Assembly: GCF_010499455.1 (NCBI RefSeq)
Contig: NZ_JAAGOH010000001.1
Location: 124,001-188,000 of the forward strand
DNA: 64,000 nucleotides
From: Ideonella livida
Lineage (GTDB): Bacteria; Pseudomonadota; Gammaproteobacteria; Burkholderiales; Burkholderiaceae_C
Direction: 5' to 3'
Notes under the pieces: generated by a model
Database searches by the model: none
What the model was told of the DNA's origin: nothing
The model's input: the letters and a program-made list of their open reading frames with translations, nothing else
Shown here: positions 7,810 to 46,732 of the stretch, piece by piece
Layout of the letters: each line of letters opens with the position of its first letter
Position numbering within the stretch: the first letter of the stretch is position 1
Program-made: the position numbers and the translations under genes

Positions 7810-7886
7810 TGGGGTGGCTGATGGGACTCGAACCCACGACAACCAGAATCACAATCTGGGACTCTACCAACTGAGCTACAGCCACC
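7810..7886 (-). tRNA. tRNA-His (anticodon GTG)
   Basis: Read on the minus strand the gene begins with the extra 5' G of tRNA-His (position 7886), has acceptor GTGGCTG/CAGCCAC, D-arm AGCTCAGTTGGTAGAG, anticodon loop TTGTGAT (GTG) and T-arm GTGGGTTCGAGTCCCAT, and encodes its CCA (7812-7810). Intact. Confidence 0.97.
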
Positions 7887-7928: not shown

Positions 7929-9836
7929 TCAAGCACCATTTTCATTTTTTGTGGAGACGGCCTTGGGCAGGTGCGATTCGGCCTTGAAGCGGGCCTTCAG
8001 GCTCTGGAGGTAGGCCTCGGCTTCAGCGTCCGCCAGCGCGCGCACCACGGCCGGACGGGCACGCAGCAGGCTTTCGTCCTGGGCCGCCCGCTCCACCACC
8101 TTGACCACCCGCAGCACGGCATGGCCCTGCTCGCCCAGGTCGACGTCGGCCCAGGCCGTTCCCTGGCTCAAGTCGGCCTTAAGGGCCGCCTCCAGGGCTT
8201 CGCGCGGCAGCCCCTGGGCCTGCACGCGGGAGACCACGGCGGTCTGCGCCAGCGCCACCGTCGGCGCCGCCTTGGCTGCGGCCAGACGGGTGCGAGCCTG
8301 CTCGGCCGCCATGGCCTTGGCCTGCTCCAAGCGGACAGCCTCGGTCACCGGGCCCCGGACTTCCTCAAGCGTCAGGTTGCGCGCAGGCCGGTAGGCCACC
8401 ACGCGGGCGGACACCAGCTGGCTCGGGCCCACCTCAACCGCCTCAGTGTTGCGCTTGTTGTTGAGCGCTTCCGCGCCGAACACGGCTTCAAGCAGCTTGG
8501 CGGAGGCCAGGGCCCCAGCCGCGCCCTGGGCAGGGGTGCGGCGCACCGTGGCCTTGCGCAGCGGCAACTTGAACCGGTCCACCGCCGGCTGCAGGCTGTC
8601 GGACTGCTCGTAGACCATGTTAGTGAACTGCTCGGCATCGCCGGCATAGCGCGACTGGGCCAGCTGGCGGGACACCTCGGCCTGGATTTCAGCGCGCACG
8701 ACCTCGAAAGGCTTCTTCTCGCCACCACGGGTGGCCGCCAGACGGATGATGTGGAGCCCGAACTCGGACTCGATCAGACCGCTGGTCTCACCGACCTTCA
8801 TCGCAAAGACGGCGTCTTCAAAGGGCTTGGTCATCGCCCCGCGGCCAAAGAAGTCGAGGTCACCCCCGCGTTCGGCAGAGCCCGGATCCTGCGAGTGTTT
8901 GCGGGCCAGCGCGGCGAACTGATCCGGCGCCTTGCGCAACTCAGCCAGCACCGCCTCGGCCTGAGTCCGGGCCTTGGCCTTATCCTCCTTGGAAGCCGAA
9001 GCGTCCACGGCAAACAGGATGTGGCTGGCGCGCCGCTCCTCGGCCTGGGTGTAGCGGCTGAGGTTCTCGTCGTAGTACTTGCGCAGGTCGGCCTCGGGCA
9101 CAGTCACCTGGGCCTTGAGGATTTCCAGGTCCAGCTGCACATATTCGATGTCGGCCTCCTCGGTGGAGCGGAAGCGCTCGGCGTGCTTCTGGAAGTAGGC
9201 CTGGACCTGCTCGGCCGTGGGCGCTGCCTTGGCCATGAAGTCCTTGGTGGTCAGCAGCTCCCACTGCACCTCACGTTGCTGCAGCAGGGTCTGCACGGCG
9301 CGGTCGGCCACGACCTTGCCCGGCCAGGCGCTGTCACGCACCGTGCCGATCACCTGGCGGAAGGCCATGTCCTGGCGCAGCTGCTGGGCAAAACCTGCGG
9401 AGGTCAGGCCCTGGGCCGCGAGCAGGTCCTTGTTGACCGTGCCGTCGGGGTGGCGGATCTGCGCAAACTGGGGGTCGGTGCGGAACATTCGGGCCATGCG
9501 CTCATCGCCCACGACCAGATGATCGCGCATGACCACGGCGGCCAGCAGCCGCTCCTGCACCAGGCCGTCCAGCGTCTGCTGGCGGAAGGTGGGGGTGTCG
9601 AGCATGGCGATGTCCACGCCCGGCATCTGCTGGCGGATGCGGTCGATCTGCACGCGATGCGCCTGGTCCAGCTCGCCCTGCTGGATGGCGTGACCGTCGA
9701 CGCGCCCGACCTCCTTGGCCGCAGCATCTCGCATGCTGGAGTAGCCCTGCACGCCAAAGAACACAAAGGACGGGAAGATCAGCAGCACCAGCAGGCCCTG
9801 GAACAGGCGCGTGTGGGAGCGAACGAAATCAAACAT
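7929..9836 (-). CDS. ppiD: membrane-anchored periplasmic chaperone PpiD (SurA_N/PpiC)
   Basis: A 635-residue protein with one N-terminal membrane anchor (LFQGLLVLLIFPSFVFFGV) and a large periplasmic part. An SurA-like chaperone domain follows the anchor, then a parvulin PPIase domain around residues 265-360 (RRASHILFAV, SQDPGSAERGGDLDFFGRG, ESEFGLHIIRL). It helps newly exported proteins leave the Sec translocon. Length and domain order match PpiD of beta-proteobacteria. It is the last host gene before the prophage. Confidence 0.93.
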   Translation of the reverse strand: MFDFVRSHTRLFQGLLVLLIFPSFVFFGVQGYSSMRDAAAKEVGRVDGHAIQQGELDQAHRVQIDRIRQQMPGVDIAMLDTPTFRQQTLDGLVQERLLAAVVMRDHLVVGDERMARMFRTDPQFAQIRHPDGTVNKDLLAAQGLTSAGFAQQLRQDMAFRQVIGTVRDSAWPGKVVADRAVQTLLQQREVQWELLTTKDFMAKAAPTAEQVQAYFQKHAERFRSTEEADIEYVQLDLEILKAQVTVPEADLRKYYDENLSRYTQAEERRASHILFAVDASASKEDKAKARTQAEAVLAELRKAPDQFAALARKHSQDPGSAERGGDLDFFGRGAMTKPFEDAVFAMKVGETSGLIESEFGLHIIRLAATRGGEKKPFEVVRAEIQAEVSRQLAQSRYAGDAEQFTNMVYEQSDSLQPAVDRFKLPLRKATVRRTPAQGAAGALASAKLLEAVFGAEALNNKRNTEAVEVGPSQLVSARVVAYRPARNLTLEEVRGPVTEAVRLEQAKAMAAEQARTRLAAAKAAPTVALAQTAVVSRVQAQGLPREALEAALKADLSQGTAWADVDLGEQGHAVLRVVKVVERAAQDESLLRARPAVVRALADAEAEAYLQSLKARFKAESHLPKAVSTKNENGA

Positions 9837-10010
9837 GGAGGCAAGGTCCGGAAAGGGCCGCCGGGAGGAGCCGGCCTGGCGTAGGTGCCTGCCACTGCAG
9901 GCACAAGCGGCGGATTCTAGACAAGCCCGAAGGGGCGGCCACAGCCCGGCGCAGAGGGGAAGCCCGGGGGATGCACCTGGAGCTGCGCGGTGCGCGCGCC
10001 GTGGAGACGG

Positions 10011-10057
10011 TGGTGGGTGCTGAGGGGCTCGAACCCCCGACCTACGCCTTGTAAGGG
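10011..10057 (-). other. phage attachment site: 3' half of tRNA-Val(TAC)
   Basis: On the minus strand the sequence from the anticodon loop onward (CCCTTACAAGGCGTAGG), a T-arm (GGGGGTTCGAGCCCC) and the acceptor end AGCACCC-A-CCA of tRNA-Val(TAC) is present. The 5' half (acceptor, D-arm and first anticodon strand) is missing and replaced by unrelated AT-rich DNA. This is what an integrated phage leaves at the far att site when it recombines inside a tRNA anticodon stem-loop. The restored intact tRNA should be at the other end, right of the window. Confidence 0.85.
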
Positions 10058-10101
10058 GGATACTTCATCAAATAAATCATCACCTTACGAAATCAACCAA
10101 C

Positions 10102-10130
10102 TTGCAATCGCCAACCGATATTCGTATGAT
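10102..10130 (+). promoter_or_regulatory. sigma70-type promoter for the large non-coding RNA
   Basis: TTGCAA, exactly 17 bases, then TATGAT. It lies in an AT-rich strip just inside the attachment site and points into the structured region. A start near 10137 is expected. Confidence 0.65.
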
Positions 10131-10590
10131 GCTTGAACGCCCCGGGAAAGCGTTCGAAACAGTTCCGGCACCAGGCGTTCCCACCGGCTACACGATGGGG
10201 CTATCAGATCAGCGGCAGCATCGCAAGGATGGCGGCGGCGGGGAAACGGGCAAGCACAAAGTCCAGGCCACCCACCAAAGAGCCAGAAGCCTTTGCGTGC
10301 GGTGGCATGGATTGCAGACGGCTGCCAGCCGAAAGGCGGGGCCGATTGATGGGTTCGAGTCCCATGTCTGCCGCTGATCTGATGGTGAAGGCGAAAGCCT
10401 GACGGAGTTCCAGCCTGCGCGTTTACGCGGGACCGAAGCGGCGAAAGCCTGGCTGAGCGGCTGGCACCCTCAACGAGCACGGGAGGCAGTTTGTGCGGGT
10501 CTGCCCCGAGTCATGCAAACCGCAGGTCCGGCCCACCAACGGGCCAAAGGCTGGGGCATCCCGGCTGGTGCTGGCGCGAGCCCAGACAAC

Positions 10591-10611
10591 CGCCCGGGTG
10601 AGAGGCCCGGG
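10591..10611 (+). repeat. copy 1 of a repeated hairpin in the large RNA
   Basis: CCCGGG-TGAGAGG-CCCGGG hairpin; identical over about 22 bases to the copy at 10885-10905, 294 bases apart. Two identical hairpins in one RNA suggest two docking points. Confidence 0.85.
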
Positions 10612-10884
10612 ACCTTCACGCATGCGGCTTGGAAGCACGCATAGAACCGGAGTGATGCGGACGCGAAAGCGGACGACTGAAGACGGAAACTAGCTAGGCC
10701 CAGACCGCAGCCGTGAGGGTGAAAACGCCGAGGAAACGAATCCGGTTCAGCGCTGCAGGCGACCGGTAGGCATGGCGGGGACTGTTGCTGCAGACGCACG
10801 GTGCAACGTCACACCTCACGCGCCCTTGTGGCTGTTAGACCCGCTGCGAAGTGCGGGCGAGCAAGGCAAGCTTTCAGGATTGCC

Positions 10885-10905
10885 CGCCCGGGTGAGAGGC
10901 CCGGG
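10885..10905 (+). repeat. copy 2 of the repeated hairpin in the large RNA
   Basis: Same CCCGGG-TGAGAGG-CCCGGG hairpin as at 10591, again in a GC-rich multi-stem area. Confidence 0.85.
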
Positions 10906-11106
10906 GCCAAAAACAAAGCCCTACGGTTCAAGGCGCAAGAGCTACCGTGGGGCTTTTCGAGACGCCCGCCACATGGCTAACCCCCGAGCGATCGGAACAT
11001 GGGCAAGACGGTGATGGTAGCCGTCCGAGCTGGTGGAAGGCTGGCAACTTCAAACCGACCGCACCATTGGGCGGCCCGCAGGAACCCGTAACCTGCTGAG
11101 TGGATG

Positions 11107-11128
11107 CCCGGCCTAGCGCCGGGTTTTT
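11107..11128 (+). terminator. rho-independent terminator of the large RNA
   Basis: CCCGGC-CTAGC-GCCGGG stem-loop followed by TTTTT on the plus strand; closes the unit that starts at the 10102 promoter. Confidence 0.85.
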
Positions 11129-11157
11129 CGCTTGATCGGCATATAGAATTCAATGCC

Positions 11158-11406
11158 ATGACAAATGATCAGCCCCCCAAGCCCCGTGGCGGTTTTCGGC
11201 CAAACGCGGGCCGGCGCGCAGCGGACGGGGCGACAGGGCTCAAAGAGCGCCTGATTGGTCTTGATGCCGAAACAGAGGCTATTGCCAAGCGAGCGGGTGG
11301 GGGGAAACTGGCTGTTGGAGTCCGTGTAGCCCTCCGAGCCTGGAGTCAGGCAAACCCCGCCCAACCCGGGGAAGAGGAATCAGCGGACGCAGGCACAAAG
11401 CCCTGA
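11158..11406 (+). CDS. small DNA-binding-like phage protein (82 aa)
   Basis: Starts MTNDQPPKPRGGFRPNAGRR. The glycine/arginine tail-like opening (GGFRPNAGRR) followed by a short helical body (IAKRAGGGKLAVGVRVALRAW) is common in small phage proteins that may form ribbon-helix-helix dimers; the function is not known. It is one of few plus-strand genes in the prophage, right after the RNA terminator, and runs into the Rz gene with a 27-base convergent overlap. Confidence 0.6.
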   Translation: MTNDQPPKPRGGFRPNAGRRAADGATGLKERLIGLDAETEAIAKRAGGGKLAVGVRVALRAWSQANPAQPGEEESADAGTKP

Positions 11407-45785: not shown

Positions 45786-46036
45786 GGAACGCTCCTGTTG
45801 CGAGACTTCAAGAGCCTTGCAGTCGGAAGCGTTTTCAGTCGCAACCAGTCGCAAGGCGGCCGGGAGGCTGAAAACCGAGCAACAGTCGGCGGACGGTTTT
45901 CCCCTTGCGGGTGTTGTATGGCCGTCGCCCTCCCGGCCAAAAATGAATCTGGCGCGGACGCAAAAAATCCACGTCGTTACGGTCGTGGCCCCGGTTGCTG
46001 GAGTTTTCAGTCTCCGGGGCGCAGTATATGGCGAGT
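45786..46036. promoter_or_regulatory. leader region of the antirepressor gene with hairpins
   Basis: No gene. Contains GCCGGGAG...CTCCCGGC long-range arms (about 45862 and 45932) enclosing an AAAACCG...CGGTTTT stem, which on the minus strand could act as an attenuator or terminator before the antirepressor. No firm promoter boxes were found. Confidence 0.45.
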
Positions 46037-46408
46037 TCAGCGGGGCCGCAAGTCGTCCCGGTCGTATTCCTCGGCACGCTGCGCCTCCAACTCGCGCATC
46101 TTGGCGTAGCACTGCTGCAAGCCATCCTCGCCCCACACGGAGCGAACAGCTTCCTTCCAGAGCAGGTGCCCCTCGATCTTGCGTGCCACCAAGTCGGCAG
46201 CTTTCATGTTGGCCCGAAGCTCCCCGATCATTTCGGTGGCCTCGCCTTGGAGCTTGGTCAGCTCGGCGCGATGATCTTCCTGGCTGAGTGGCAAGGACTG
46301 GCGAAGCATTTGAAGCTCGGCTTGCTTGCGCCCAATCTTCGCCAGCAGATTGCGAGCCTCCCTCAACGTTCGTTGCAGTTGCTCGTCCACCTGTTTCACG
46401 GTTCCCAT
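46037..46408 (-). CDS. hypothetical coiled-coil protein (123 aa)
   Basis: [20 protein letters not shown]; almost all helix with heptad spacing through residue 75, then a charged C-terminus. GGGAGAAGCGA precedes the ATG. Early-region gene of unknown role upstream of the antirepressor. Confidence 0.6.
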
Positions 46409-46732
46409 TCGCTTCTCCCTTGGCTTGTTGAAGCCGAGAATTTTGAATGGAATCCGCTGCGGGGATCACCGCGTCGCCAAACGTAGAGGCGGCAGCCCGA
46501 AGCGGAGTTGGCAGACCGGTGCATCCACGGGGAAACCGGCAGGGCTTCGCAGCCCTCTCCACCCGGGCCGCCATAGAAACAGGCGTGCTCAGGCACGAAA
46601 AAGGCCGCTATCCCTGCGGGAGGGGCGGCCTTGCGCCGCGAATGCTACTCGGGCTGCCAAGCCCGGCTCCCGTTTTTTTCGGGAACGGCGGTAGCGTAGC
46701 CCCTCAACGACGGAACTGCAAGCCACGTGGAT
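46409..46732. other. intergenic region with hairpins, no gene
   Basis: Over 320 bases without a credible frame. On the minus strand, AAGGCCGCC...GCGGCCTTTTT at about 46604-46642 is a likely terminator for the secreted-protein gene. A TCCCG-T7-CGGGA hairpin lies near 46666-46684. The rest probably contains the promoter of the early block (46408 leftwards), though no clear boxes were identified. Confidence 0.5.
46604..46642 (-). terminator. terminator after the secreted-protein gene
   Basis: AAGGCCGC/GCGGCCTT stem, ending CCTTTTTCG on the minus strand; separates late genes on the right from the antirepressor block. Confidence 0.65.

Follow-up and report, generated by a model that had tools for sequence, protein, structure and literature searches.

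To our knowledge, few families of giant structured phage RNAs are known. According to PMC12286853, GOLLD and ROOL are phage-borne and frequently lie close to tRNA islands, and tRNAs are at times contained in the linkers of GOLLD. The RNA studied here is encoded in the window, the whole stretch of 64,000 nucleotides that was analysed (genome G000, contig C1, 124001-188000; all window coordinates are counted from its first letter). Judged against the same source (PMC12286853), its likeness to GOLLD lies in its being large and multi-stemmed, in phages or prophages and often near tRNAs, which sometimes lie inside, and its likeness to ROOL in large size and in phage or prophage location near tRNA islands. 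The GOLLD-like setting is represented by an attachment tRNA-Val beside the window RNA and by tRNA genes near the RNA in 3 of the 8 loci of a first scan (L046, L066, L068). Unlike GOLLD, however, the RNA has no Rfam match and is built from a tandem module whose core, M1, also occurs in solitary form; unlike ROOL, it has no match to RF03087, and the window RNA measures about 990 nt against 574 positions in the ROOL model. What is new is the RNA family, while its setting resembles that of GOLLD and ROOL.

The first-pass annotation had raised kinship with these two families, which our Rfam scans do not support. We ran cmscan with 4227 families on the window at gathering thresholds, on the region 9900-11300 to E 5 and on 13 related loci to E 2, and neither the region nor the related loci gave a match to GOLLD or ROOL at threshold. 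The four gathering-level matches in the window all lie outside the RNA region; the matches to E 5 within 9900-11300 (the attachment tRNA, NiCo, SorX and SOX2OT) are all below their family thresholds, and the 13 related loci yielded tRNAs and sub-threshold matches only; a sub-threshold Six3os1_5 match of 17.8 bits overlaps M1 of L101. For GOLLD, the absence of a cmscan match is to be read with the presence of its model among the 4227 taken, in place of a positive control, from PMC12286853, which states that the GOLLD profile used there came from Rfam. A direct search with the ROOL model matched 0 of 14 genomes and records at E <= 1, a result that is weak alone since 0 of 14 controls matched. 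Given the absence of detectable kinship with either family, a new class is therefore favoured, as the annotation had offered in the alternative: there are homologs with covariation, and no Rfam 15 family reaches threshold. We therefore class it as a large, modular phage RNA of a new kind, GOLLD/ROOL-like in setting and not by homology. A family without kin in Rfam that has a repeated module, T-arm-like hairpins and a small portable core would offer independent evidence on the common features of giant phage RNAs. No description of an M1-module RNA was found in titles and abstract openings of the open-licence literature, and one may exist elsewhere.

The accession that had been named as GOLLD, RF01998, belongs to group-II-D1D4-1; this model had 0 matches in the own genome, with the control matched in 2 of 14. 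GNRA hairpins are a point of likeness to group II introns, and together with the location at an attachment site they could hint at a mobile element, yet none of the group II domain models matched in the window or the region. It is extremely unlikely that the region is what remains of a mobile element (a group II intron, for instance) or GC-rich sequence without meaning: neither a group II model nor any other Rfam family matches at threshold, and covariation across different phages, together with the long helix before M1, speaks against it. Separately, sub-threshold matches to Betaproteobacteria toxic small RNA and anti-hemB were seen in the phage contigs L064 (2953-3021) and L103 (8606-8678).

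The placement at a prophage edge was borne out by a 55-bp attachment core with a second copy about 80 kb away, in an intact tRNA-Val(TAC) with matching core and flank (G000:C1:213990-214065), and it is because of this shared core that the prophage is put at about 80 kb. Its gene content includes tail sheath, portal and PmgG-like head morphogenesis proteins. The features of the region are the following.

10003-10057, minus strand: left attachment core, made up of the 3' half of tRNA-Val(TAC) and the flank that follows it (55 bp, 92.7% identity)
10102-10130, plus strand: promoter-like TTGCAA-N17-TATGAT (9/12 consensus positions; one found, 0.3 expected in shuffles)
10179-10200, plus strand: hairpin before module A, CCCA...TGGG (local fold -8.7 kcal/mol)
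10200-10386, plus strand: module A long helix, strands 10200-10218 and 10368-10386, 149-nt insert (0/300 shuffles)
10349-10365, plus strand: hairpin ATGGG-TTCGAGT-CCCAT, T-arm-like, immediately preceding the 3' strand of the helix (perfect T-arm pattern)
10379-10474, plus strand: M1 core, consisting of P1, GNRA hairpin P2, GACGGAGTTC, P3, GACCGA and GAGCG (95.9 bits with model R2, for which the window is one building sequence)
10590-10614, plus strand: repeated GC hairpin, copy 1, opening module B (25-nt repeat)
10612-10720, plus strand: module B helix with mismatches, strands 10612-10632 and 10700-10720 (score 33, shuffle maximum 31, 0/200)
10810-10820, plus strand: candidate downstream partner of module B, CACACCTCACG (by eye)
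10884-10908, plus strand: repeated GC hairpin, copy 2, opening module C (25-nt repeat)
10915-10956, plus strand: local helix of module C, AAAGCCCTACGGT/ACCGTGGGGCTTT, its equivalence to the long helix being doubtful (22/200 shuffles as good)
11044-11104, plus strand: 3' motif common with host small-RNA-like elements (70 bits with model R1, for which the window is a model-building sequence)
11106-11129, plus strand: intrinsic terminator GCCCGGCCTAGCGCCGGGT-TTTTC (sequence pattern)

To the right of the RNA region lie a small plus-strand ORF and then minus-strand spanin and endolysin genes. The ORF just 3' of the RNA terminator (82 aa, 11158-11406) has no Pfam or PHROG match, no recognised function and no viral relative that we could find. 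Elsewhere within the prophage, Rfam matches to sRNA-Xcc1, C4 antisense RNA and isrK are clustered on the minus strand of the window at 45850-46686.

Most of the RNA's claimed anatomy stood. The promoter-like site is present, as a moderate match, with a predicted transcript start near 10137; the terminator is present as well, terminator-like sites in the stretch (3 against 1.8 in shuffles) being not clearly in excess. The 16-bp perfect helix is real (10203-10218 with 10368-10383, 149 nt between the arms), and the hairpin said to occur twice is indeed repeated, at 25 nt and 96% identity and not as the 22 bases given for it. The fold energy of 998 nt is 3.12 standard deviations below that of 20 dinucleotide shuffles, none of which folds as well. 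The view that no believable protein is encoded also held: of the ORFs listed in the region a subset of nine was tested, and 0 of these 9 have a Pfam or PHROGs match at E 0.1; by codon-position GC, none of the ORFs of at least 50 aa within the RNA resembles the five phage genes nearby that were taken as coding reference (GC2 0.48-0.52, GC3 0.76-0.83). We conclude that this region of about 990 nt almost certainly encodes a non-coding phage RNA of a family absent from Rfam 15.

The M1 core, of about 95 nt, occurs in 12 loci, namely the window and 11 others (10 viral contigs and one bacterial genome). Covariation among homologs, whose absence had been set beforehand as a refuting check, was found, and the homologs with their covarying stems support the claim of a giant structured phage RNA: RNAalifold on the 12 aligned loci gives 17 pairs, 7 of them with compensatory double changes. 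In a separate count, 99.0% of cells are paired and 22 are double-change cells, and 0 of 500 shuffles reach either figure; slid registers of the alignment give at most 4 double-change pairs and at most 44.6% pairing. All loci counted have the core with covarying stems P1 and P3, and among the 12 sequences P1 pair 5-142 is broken in the window only. The joining segments are invariant across the alignment, in which 11 of the 12 sequences, the window included, fit search patterns derived from the window and L045; because of this origin of the patterns GGTGA and GACGGAG are conserved by construction, as is P2 in the 6 loci found by the 22-mer GGTGAAGGCGAAAGCCTGACGG, while P3 past its first letter and the outer part of P1 lie outside the search patterns. 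The 12 loci are not fully independent because L103 and L104 have neighbouring genes in common. With R2, they score 88-103 bits and the next match 28 bits. Folding energy of M1 is unremarkable (z = -0.38 in the window and -2.57, -0.99, -1.71, -1.75 and -0.05 in other members, six in all), and because it does not single M1 out, the case for M1 rests on covariation.

Relatives of the RNA are thinly spread among bacterial genomes. Strong R2 matches, under stricter search filters, were found in 2 of 379 family genomes (the own genome and G235) and in 1 of 303 class genomes (the own genome). A search of the region against 149 relatives matched 10, comprising the own genome, six by the 3' motif only and three by short matches (L006, L008, L009), the last read as chance. 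With blastn, the RNA body matched 21 of 399 family genomes, of which G235 and G289 are convincing besides the own; the other 18 matches span 25-34 bases each, and of these L008 and L009 were examined by reading and L055 and L056 by alignment. The G235 locus (L045) shares GGTGAAGGCGAAAGCCTGACGGAGTTC and the sequence after it with the window, and the G289 locus (L046), which is without M1 by R2, shares the repeated hairpin and its flanks. R2 matches of 29-32 bits were set aside as chance, three in family genomes after reading and one in class genomes after rescoring.

Among phages and plasmids, blastn of the region found nothing. The 22-mer matched 6 viral contigs, and a looser pattern matched 11, being the same 6, L101-L104 and L100, the last a chance match. 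A hairpin-only pattern, CCCGGGTGAGAGGCCCGGG, gave 0 viral matches and, at the level of the pattern alone, 5 in genomes, and another, CCGGGTGAGAGGCCCGG, gave 5 viral matches judged chance by eye. Contig L024 carries a PmgG-like gene 100% identical to that of the prophage and ends within the spanin gene; L027, whose PmgG-like gene is 42% identical, showed no such RNA over its 15.8 kb, and an R2 match there at 8536 (28 bits) was discarded as falling in an ORF. Of the six phage records (Klebsiella, Raoultella and Stenotrophomonas) with a match to L104, four were examined and set aside: in these the match lies within an opposite-strand gene and scores 20-25 R2 bits (E 4e-5 to 9e-4), and P2 is broken in two aligned records. 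A Shinella plasmid match was likewise discarded (in ORFs, 11.4 bits). L068 matched 1164 phage records, with a tRNA named in 24 of the best 30, and an M1 match is possible among the 1134 beyond those 30; pieces of L065, L066, L045, L046, L102 and L063 found no M1 relative in phages.

The loci can be sorted by what surrounds M1. A long helix of 16-22 positions stands directly before M1 in 9 of 9 loci of the large type (the window, L045, L063-L068 and L101), and its strands differ in sequence among loci with pairing kept, some mismatches or G-U pairs included; thus module A of the window has, at the equivalent place in 8 other loci, complementary strands of other sequence. The helix score is reached by 0 of 300 shuffles in 8 of the large-type loci and by 1 of 300 in L063. 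The three stand-alone loci L102-L104 are without the long helix, 288, 55 and 299 of 300 shuffles doing as well; the sorting into large-type and stand-alone loci was made by eye, prior to the helix test. The 5' helix strand opens with (A/G)C(C/T)(A/T)TCA in most loci and with CCACACG in L067, and a hairpin often precedes it, weakly so in L068 module 1 (-1.2 kcal/mol).

Nine further module anchors were placed by eye, and 7 of these 9 stand at 0 of 200 shuffles; the test was failed by window module C (22/200) and by the second L046 anchor (13/200), and passed narrowly by window module B, L046 B and L068 module 1. Window module B resembles L046 and the helix before M1 in L066. The hairpin-helix unit occurs three times over about 1.1 kb in L065 and three times in L068; L066 has two helices downstream of a tRNA-Thr. 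Read from sequence, the module is made up of a hairpin, a strand, a long helix around an insert, which in some members contains a T-arm-like hairpin, and a body; M1 is the best conserved body, and there are one to three modules per RNA. L063 and L067 have the look of one-unit forms and L102-L104 that of M1 by itself, so that the loci would range step by step from an element of 95 nt to an RNA of about 1 kb, across contigs with different genes (virion RNA polymerase in L065, holin and endolysin in L066, major head protein in L102, RecE in L104, RecT in L068).

The stand-alone forms bear on the question whether M1 acts in cis, as a regulatory or ligand-binding element of which the large forms would be expanded versions. 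In L102-L104, M1 stands between genes without a giant RNA, starts no more than about 10 nt from a stop codon and lies upstream of a same-strand gene, and the invariant joining segments resemble a binding core, their invariance being partly due to the search patterns. Against this, the window RNA has its own terminator, the ORF behind it is without recognised function, and neighbouring genes vary between loci, so a cis-acting M1 seems improbable to us. Solitary in some phages and within RNAs of about 1 kb in others, M1 is at about 95 nt a tractable object for work on structure and function.

We prefer to explain the locus by a new family and a GOLLD/ROOL-like structural role jointly, an account to which we give a little less than an even chance. 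Its mechanism, transcription included, is drawn by analogy with GOLLD and ROOL and is put forward tentatively: the phage would transcribe a structural RNA of about 990 nt, which would fold and, by way of its junctions and loops, associate to give a larger body of RNA or of RNA and protein, and this body would work like GOLLD or ROOL, perhaps holding or shielding phage tRNAs. Transcription, timing, oligomerisation and cargo are what we infer for it. By eye, a single TGATGGTG-type mid strand is able to pair with an ACCATCA-type strand on either side, upstream or downstream, and these two partners might serve a switch or strand exchange. A self-assembling phage RNA class of up to three module copies, with phage tRNAs or tRNA-like T-arms carried in the modules or next to them, is a rather doubtful extrapolation; in it the mid strand would pair with either partner, and this choice would allow strand exchange between neighbouring modules or molecules during assembly.

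T-arm-like hairpins adjoining a long stem are a likeness to tRNA and tmRNA. We scanned 14 regions, their limits set by eye, for perfect T-arms (a 5-bp stem with a TTCRANN loop), and found one outside tRNA genes in each of 5, the window, L065, L101, L046 and L120, a total of 5 against a shuffle mean of 0.04 that 0 of 200 shuffles reach. The strict pattern is absent in L045, L063, L064, L066, L067, L102-L104 and, outside its tRNA, L068; looser T-arms were seen by eye in L045 and L066. These hairpins would suit an RNA that handles tRNAs, its modules folding about phage tRNAs or next to them within a single precursor and its T-arm mimics guiding or resisting RNase P, RNase Z and nucleases. In keeping with this, L068 has a tRNA-Gln directly after the first module helix and a tRNA-Arg after the third module, and a tRNA gene lies just upstream of the RNA in L046 and L066, as one adjoins the L120 hairpin. 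However, L045, L063, L064, L065, L067 and L101-L104 have no tRNA gene within the RNA or next to it, and the window RNA has only the attachment tRNA-Val fragment alongside: neither ARAGORN nor Rfam calls a tRNA or tmRNA inside it, the only tRNA gene that ARAGORN calls in the window is a tRNA-His at 7810-7885, and the tRNA model matches in the region only at 10015-10084 (26.6 bits, sub-threshold). We regard tRNA handling as unlikely.

The same hairpins, together with the phage location, could point to a decoy against host defence, whose T-arm-like surfaces would titrate tRNA-attacking or RNA-sensing enzymes. Unlike tRNA and tmRNA, however, the window RNA shows no anticodon arm or CCA end, nor was a tRNA found inside it, and a decoy is very unlikely. 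In L120 (MW202675.1, 2414-2610) a hairpin common with L065 lies directly before a tRNA-Met, with the perfect T-arm upstream, and precedes a gene that sits before the major capsid gene; this element is possibly a small relative of the large RNA.

The 3' motif, of about 60 nt, ties the end of the RNA to elements of the host. It was found in 21 of 40 near genomes at E <= 0.001, with matches of at least 47 bits in 16 of the 21 and weak ones of 17-26 bits in the other five, and in 14 of 16 same-genus genomes, the own included; the own genome has a chromosomal copy of 55.1 bits (G000:C33:41799-41859), and further sequences of the motif are L126-L141. No Rfam family fits it. In 19 sequences, double changes occur in 5 of 9 pairs (2 of 500 shuffles) and in 16 cells (0 of 500), the pairing used for this count having been chosen after viewing the alignment. 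Among 399 order genomes, five non-self matches with one mismatch were put down to chance after inspection by eye. By eye, too, the host copies resemble a small RNA that has a promoter and a terminator of its own; the window RNA carries this host-small-RNA-like motif, so the 3' end of the phage RNA copies an element of host type. The viral contig L023 (114 kb) has the motif at 1713-1772, right after the stop of what by eye is a pstS-like gene, and a terminator-like hairpin follows on its 3' side.
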